From IMG/VR virus record IMGVR_UViG_3300013109_000495, positions 1-64,000 of that record: DNA of 64,000 nucleotides. One strand, given 5' to 3'. Below, one piece after another: positions 28,320-28,848 of this stretch; position 1 is the stretch's first letter; each line of letters starts with the position of its first letter. Under the pieces are notes generated by a model. It did no database searches. It saw only the letters and a program-made list of their open reading frames with translations, and had not been told where the DNA came from. The position numbers and the translations under genes are program-made. Origin of the DNA: a virus.

Positions 28320-28351
28320 TTGACAAGATTTTTATTTCTATGCTATATAGT
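28320..28351 (+). promoter_or_regulatory. Sigma-70-like promoter of the structured RNA
   Basis: TTGACA at 28320-28325 is followed by a TATATAGT region (28344-28351) that offers a -10 element at 18-20 nt spacing. There is no ribosome-binding site or plausible coding frame downstream on this strand, which fits a promoter for a non-coding RNA starting around 28352-28358. Confidence 0.6.
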
Positions 28352-28831
28352 AGTGATGGGCAACAGCATCCATCCACTAGGCAAATCATATCTACTTTAT
28401 ATAAAACAGCATTGAGGTCGCATCTTGCGATCAGATCTTGCTTGTAGAAAAAGGCAATGATGGGGCTATGAGAAAAAGCACCCCCAGGTTTGTGTGAGAT
28501 TATCGTATAAAGATTACACAAATTCGCGTTGGAAAGAACGAGCTAATGGGTACAGCACAACCGCCCAGTTACGACAGCGATATACGGTGACTATAAACTC
28601 AGCACATGGGTAAGTCGTTCTGCTAGAGATAGCAGAACTATGACTAACATCTAGCACATAGGACGCATATTGCGTTTATTTTTAGAGCATAGCGTAAATT
28701 AGAAATAAACTGAGCGTAGCGAAAGTTTAGATGGCTGTAAGCCATCTTTAATGAATGGAATCGCCGGGAACAATGATTACAGCTGAAAAGCCAACCCCCG
28801 GCTCTATACTTTTTGCCTGCGAATTCCATTG
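28352..28831 (+). ncRNA. Large structured non-coding RNA candidate, about 480 nt
   Basis: The stretch is visibly richer in G+C than its surroundings and has no convincing gene. Plus-strand hairpins include AGTGATGG/CCATCCACT (28352-28378, at the 5' end), TCGCA/TGCGA (28418-28430), TGGGG/CCCCA around 28460-28486, TTTGTGT/ACACAAA (28489-28522), a perfect 8-bp GTTCTGCT/AGCAGAAC stem (28617-28638) extended by AGTC/GACT, ACGCA/TGCGT (28663-28675), a perfect 8-bp AGATGGCT/AGCCATCT stem (28729-28747), and a closing 3' stem AATGGAATCGC/GCGAATTCCATT (28754-28830) with an inner GCCGGG/CCCGGC alternative. A promoter lies just upstream. I do not recognise it as tmRNA, RNase P RNA or a group I intron. It could belong to the large ornate phage RNAs (GOLLD- or ROOL-like) or be new. 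Confidence 0.68.
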
Positions 28832-28848
28832 TAGATACTTATTGTGAA

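Follow-up and report, generated by a model that had tools for sequence, protein, structure and literature searches.

A folded non-coding RNA of T4-like phages, predicted to carry two pseudoknots and twin loops, and its relation to Polynucleobacter-1

The window, a 64,000-nucleotide stretch of a 121,819-base IMG/VR virus record with T4-like genes (a gp20-like portal, a baseplate hub and segE), encodes an intricately folded non-coding RNA. Comparative evidence shows this RNA to be compact (about 400 nt), with two pseudoknots and a GNRA hairpin as its framework. As judged by sequence comparison, it occurs widely among uncultured T4-like phages of marine and fresh waters and is a branch, invisible to Rfam, of a family previously known only as a 5' fragment, Polynucleobacter-1 (RF01718).

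Structure and boundaries of the RNA

A structured plus-strand non-coding RNA had been proposed at this locus in a sequence-only reading, and folding, G+C content, covariation and GNRA loop variation all bear the proposal out. On the plus strand, 100 of 100 dinucleotide shuffles fold worse than the interval (z -3.23), whereas on the minus strand 13 of 100 shuffles fold equally well (z -1.12). G+C is raised as claimed, at 0.38-0.43 inside versus about 0.23-0.33 in the flanking 300 nt, and perfect-stem hairpins are indeed present, one of 9 bp (28617-28625/28630-28638) and one of 8 bp (28729-28736/28740-28747). The claimed extent of about 480 nt stands in part: about 395 nt form the conserved RNA, whereas the sequence past about 28749 is not conserved, and the 3' "closing stem" that the reading had included falls outside it. 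The features of the RNA are as follows.

28320..28349, plus strand: promoter as read from the sequence, TTGACA (28320-28325), 18 nt, TATATA (28344-28349), with the same layout in relatives
28355..28750, plus strand: structured RNA, with both ends placed by the promoter, the extent of conservation and the terminal hairpin
28391..28445, plus strand: 5' domain with helices 28391-28395/28441-28445 and 28406-28410/28435-28439, from covariation scores
28461..28486, plus strand: hairpin of GGGGC..CCCC type, in which 28463-28484 and 28464-28483 covary
28487..28524, plus strand: hairpin P-a, whose loop 28504-28508 makes pseudoknot 1; covariation, with both-side changes in 8/9 outer pairs (clades A-D)
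28527..28531, plus strand: 5' strand of pseudoknot 2, CGUUG, pairing with CAAC(C)G at 28558-28563; compensatory in clade E and jumbo phages
28547..28567, plus strand: stem UGGG/CCCA, whose loop carries the CAAC strand of pseudoknot 2; pair covariation
28582..28586, plus strand: 3' strand of pseudoknot 1, pairing with 28504-28508; both-side changes in 5/5 pairs, 88% of cells paired
28615..28640, plus strand: hairpin with GNRA tetraloop, GAGA in the window; loop variation and covariation
28729..28747, plus strand: terminator-like hairpin at the 3' end, with a short run of U after it; 28734-28742 and 28735-28741 covary
28757..28830, plus strand: lineage-private hairpin outside the conserved RNA, its core matching three near-identical contigs only

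Strong base-pair covariation, the compensatory change that the sequence-only reading had proposed seeking, was found in related viral contigs. Among 71 nonredundant clade A/B sequences, the most strongly coupled columns (APC-corrected) are mostly Watson-Crick pairs in stacked helices; the same list also holds clade-linked non-pairs and identity-coupled loops. For the named core structure, 86.9% of cells are paired across 31 clade A-D sequences, the covariation score is 0.534 versus 0.10-0.21 for slid partners, and 20 of 28 core pairs show changes on both sides. Within the same 31 sequences, pair 28547-28567 is CG, GC, UA or AU in every one. Pseudoknot 2 (GUUG/CAAC) is invariant in clades A-D, and its compensatory variants come from clade E and the jumbo phages (GUUGU/ACAAC, GUCGU/ACGAC, GUUGAC/GUCAAC, GUUGC/GCAAC and GUCAU/AUGAC). 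The tetraloop appears among relatives as GAGA, GAAA, GTAA or GCAA, a GNRA-type variation that is sensible only for a plus-strand RNA and thus supports that strand.

A protein-coding reading, which the earlier analysis had named as a threat to its claim in the form of a conserved short-frame protein, was rejected because no frame is consistently open across 71 relatives (runs of at least 100 aa in at most 3 of 71 per frame, six frames). Signatures of tmRNA, RNase P RNA and group I introns had been reported as lacking; in agreement, ARAGORN (tRNA-like domain, tag ORF) gives 0 genes in the window, and the suggested search with Rfam covariance models matched no family in the window interval, group I/II introns and RNase P RNA included. 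BLAST of the window against cultured phages gave two short weak matches only, and BLAST of four relatives gave none. At 40411-40493 (plus strand), the window holds an Rfam freshwater-2 RNA (RF02980, 74 bits), directly 5' of an ORF at 40491-40907.

Sequence patterns support a sigma-70-type promoter of the RNA's own and a terminator-like end. The promoter claimed for the 5' edge is present and its layout is conserved: TTGAC-15..20-TATWD occurs upstream of the RNA in 53 of 71 relatives versus 0.7% of shuffled upstream regions, and 18 of 71 lack a promoter by this pattern. A simple promoter scan misses TATATA, as it requires T at -10 position 6.

Distribution and the freshwater sister group

In the T4-like lineage, the RNA locus lies between a segE-like gene and a baseplate-hub gene. 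The window also contains SMC-type and phosphoesterase genes, which we take to be gp46/gp47. The two neighbours in the window are:

27849..28301, minus strand: segE-like GIY-YIG endonuclease (PF19835, E 5.3e-36)
29453..30307, minus strand: T4_baseplate (hub) protein, a conserved syntenic marker (PF12322, E 5.9e-13)

The hub protein encoded alongside served to gather 26 related viral loci. Compared as DNA, at least 13 distinct loci share the interval, with conservation ending near 28749. A 19-base core pattern occurs in at least 119 IMG/VR stretches and in seven stretches of genome_contigs; two genome_contigs matches (L149, L150) were dropped as chance matches by inspection. In 83 nonredundant loci, many of them truncated, the recurrent surroundings comprise gp46-like and Hc1-like genes, segE and the T4_baseplate gene (58 of 83 loci), and from these recurring surroundings we infer that the locus is vertically inherited. 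A histone H1-like Hc1 protein of 63 aa is encoded in the window at 27620-27811 (plus strand), and its family occurs in 50 of the 83 loci.

A covariance model trained on marine clades A-D only (R1) strongly matches 18 of the 26 hub-linked loci and adds two more (L025, E 0.0047; L021, E 0.14), each in the matching intergenic gap. It finds no match in the other six (L005, L006, L009 and L022-L024), some of which are truncated; L023 and L024 hold an E2 core by motif. Patterns for clade E recovered at least 120 E1 and 47 E2 stretches. When R1 was run on 31 clade-E loci chosen from 167, 28 matched at E<=1 and 17 at E<=0.01. The clade-E RNAs carry the double-pseudoknot core of the window type, and twin loops are found in clades A, E1 and E2. 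A single RNA copy per contig is present in 15 marine and eight clade-E contigs; the window's genome likewise has one copy, and R1 also weakly matches 42832-42934 on the plus strand (16.1 bits, E 0.23).

RF01718 matches the 5' part of the E1 RNAs in 18 of 19 loci scanned, the nineteenth (L273) being truncated on the 5' side. It has no match in 14 distinct sources from clades A, D and E2 and the jumbo phages, and the window gives no match to it at gathering or at E<=10 (membership threshold 37 bits). As R1 finds the sister group and RF01718 forms the 5' part of E1, the window RNA is placed by homology as a branch of the family that contains RF01718. The suggestion of a marine environmental RNA class, or a new one, was therefore right, with the refinement that in the freshwater-type relatives the 5' part is Polynucleobacter-1. 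A 141-nt Rfam motif, until now an orphan, would thereby form the 5' terminus of a phage RNA family of wide distribution, which now reaches ocean phages, where Rfam is blind. A table row in the available part of Weinberg et al. 2010 (PMC2864571) gives Burkholderiales and fresh water/estuary for Polynucleobacter-1. Apart from this row, no description of the RNA in jumbo or marine phages was found in the portions of the literature searched, which cover the MIJ3, CBB and fEgEco12 papers by term only.

Candidate relatives in cultured jumbo phages

Judged by hub and portal proteins, the nearest cultured phages are T4-like jumbo phages. In 121Q-like and BF-like phages, a gap of 0.8 kb without annotation is syntenic with the RNA locus, and the DNA of this gap recurs in 40 records, with four copies in the 121Q genome, five in BF and two places in RaK2. 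Where the surroundings of a copy were read, it lies in a gap between annotated genes; the one exception is a 121Q copy overlapped by an annotated short minus-strand ORF. A double-pseudoknot core that covaries is common to ten jumbo copies (83.8% of cells paired; score 0.542 versus 0.09-0.30 slid), with hairpin 1 of this core 46% paired on the ten-copy alignment.

The motif CGTTG-6..60-ACNGNNCAACC, picked after the sequences had been inspected, occurs in seven of nine copies of 121Q and BF (not 121Q_d or BF_c) and by eye in RaK2. It is present once in eight of nine marine contigs, always at the RNA, the ninth having been fetched without its RNA; it has no other occurrence in 1.61 million strand-bases. 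Model R1 (clades A-D) gives no match to the jumbo-phage RNA. Model R2 gives three matches in 79 kb, the two best being the core of RaK2 (E 0.052) and that of BF_e (E 1.1), and a whole-record search of jumbo phages at E<=0.05 gave 0 of 7. Homology of the jumbo RNA of 121Q, BF and RaK2 to the environmental RNAs is rated likely on synteny, topology and this motif, with the covariance models at best marginal. The probable link leads to unannotated gaps of cultured jumbo phages of E. coli, Salmonella and Klebsiella, where the RNA is testable. Among relatives of 121Q, phage Sharanji has E. coli MG1655 as its recorded host.

In its available part, the CBB paper gives a promoter with -35 TGAAACG and -10 TATA, and the sequence before several jumbo copies resembles it by eye. 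Also by eye, the jumbo copies in L200-L207 show an optional module, UACAAUAUAG..CGUCCARAAUUUGA; there are two places for it, and different copies have it at one of them or at both. A 1.5-kb unannotated syntenic gap is present in Pseudomonas phages of the 30-3/PA5oct kind (L157 6900-7920, L208, L209), and in phage 30-3 a gap block of about 125 nt is repeated at two further genome places. Sinorhizobium phage Phosso has a 1-kb unannotated syntenic gap (L155 7236-8249) without an Rfam match. R2 matches in neither the Pseudomonas 30-3/PA5oct gaps nor the Phosso gap; the Pseudomonas gap possibly holds a further divergent large RNA.

Twin loops, proposed function and comparison with known RNAs

Two hexamer loops about 50 nt apart are alike within one RNA and different between phages. 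In the window they are:

28601..28606, plus strand: twin loop 1, AGCACA, same bases as loop 2
28653..28658, plus strand: twin loop 2, AGCACA, same bases as loop 1

Columns 28601-28603 equal columns 28653-28655 in 71 of 71 sequences. Among the distinct matches listed, 95 of 116 fit the loop pattern (the 21 that do not are clade D, two of clade C, truncated sequences and two chance matches). The loops are identical in 93 of the 95 by regex, and the other two are regex slips, identical by eye; permuting the loop partners in these 95 sequences gives a mean of 34 and a maximum of 47 identical. With a strict CTC/TCT flank, the count for clade A is 75 of 86, the 11 misses belonging to clades B and D with other flanks. 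Under strict flanks, identity holds in 100 of 101 E1 (among the matches listed) and 33 of 34 E2 sequences, versus means of 31 and 16 for dealt partners. The E1 miss (L353, GGATAA versus AGATAA) is a true one-letter departure, and in the E2 miss (L420) the difference lies in the flank or the first letter. Clade D loop pairs (e.g. GGTAAAG, GGCAAGTT) were read by eye; in three clade D loci (L046, L063, L078) the second twin loop follows an AUG and lies in a tiny ORF (M-A-S-stop, M-T-N-stop), which may be chance. Loop complements within the same RNA occur at chance level (5 versus 5.1 of 72), and nine phage contigs show no enrichment of twin-loop words.

That two loops change between phages while staying identical to each other is evolutionarily unusual; the pattern points towards a partner in trans and hints that both loops read a single one. 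The function judged most likely, and held tentatively, is that of a trans-acting scaffold or decoy offering one address twice. The RNA, transcribed from its own promoter, would act in trans during infection; its folded core would present two copies of one short hexamer loop, and a single partner, which may be an RNA of host or phage, or else a protein that evolves fast or is dimeric, would be bound twice. It is proposed that this partner differs between phages, so that the two loops change together. Set against the scaffold or decoy are the failure to find a trans partner among the phage sequences searched, the jumbo RNAs without recognised twin loops, and the same-strand gene of family F4 that follows the RNA in many loci, where a cis role is conceivable. 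A more ambitious version, and a doubtful one, would make this a new functional kind of phage RNA with a dual address: its two identical, phage-specific loops, carried on a scaffold of two pseudoknots, would seize a single host target that varies (RNA, DNA or protein) as part of an arms race. Such an RNA would have been passed down among T4-like giant phages of ocean, lakes and sewage, with Polynucleobacter-1 the only fragment seen before.

Other readings of the same evidence are less convincing. Assembly of copies at lysis into an RNA-only homo-oligomer, with the twin loops as docking points, would suit a large ornate phage RNA with pseudoknots and a GNRA loop, as in GOLLD and ROOL (accessible portion of PMC12286853), and the several copies per genome in cultured jumbo phages; it is unlikely, however, since loop-loop bridges predict complementary covariation and the twin loops show identity only, with no complementary column, and since the RNA is smaller (about 400 nt) and unrelated by Rfam. 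Duplicated guides, in which the hexamers serve as short antisense addresses pairing with one host RNA or DNA target, would be expected to vary between phages and match within each RNA, as the loops do, but six letters are short and the phage genomes searched offer no enriched target and no orthologous mRNA site with the twin-loop complement, so this too is improbable. The chances of a cis-acting leader or attenuator are small: F4 (MELLFDHTFGK...) begins directly 3' of the RNA, on the same strand, in many marine loci, but the window's next gene lies on the opposite strand, downstream genes vary by locus, and the terminal hairpin covaries. That the RNA is left over from a group I/II intron, or another ribozyme, that lost its mobility, with the adjoining GIY-YIG gene as its former endonuclease, is very improbable, the RNA being intergenic in the loci inspected and without an Rfam intron match, and the jumbo-phage neighbour being endonuclease VII instead of GIY-YIG.

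The window RNA can be set beside three known or candidate systems. GOLLD and ROOL, suggested as possible identities by the sequence-only reading, are likewise large, ornate and phage-borne, but the window RNA is shorter and has no Rfam match to them. The jumbo-phage RNA (121Q, BF, RaK2) shares the syntenic gap (121Q, BF), the strand and a hairpin-loop pseudoknot spanning the CGUUG...ACNGNNCAACC pseudoknot; it differs in its length of about 500 nt, its 2-5 copies per genome, its marginal covariance-model match and its lack of recognised twin loops. The Rfam model of Polynucleobacter-1 is without the double-pseudoknot core, the GNRA hairpin and the twin loops, and neither the window RNA nor any member scanned from clades A, D and E2 or from the jumbo phages matches it; yet Polynucleobacter-1 forms the 5' ~140 nt of the clade-E1 RNAs, whose 3' half is homologous to the window RNA.
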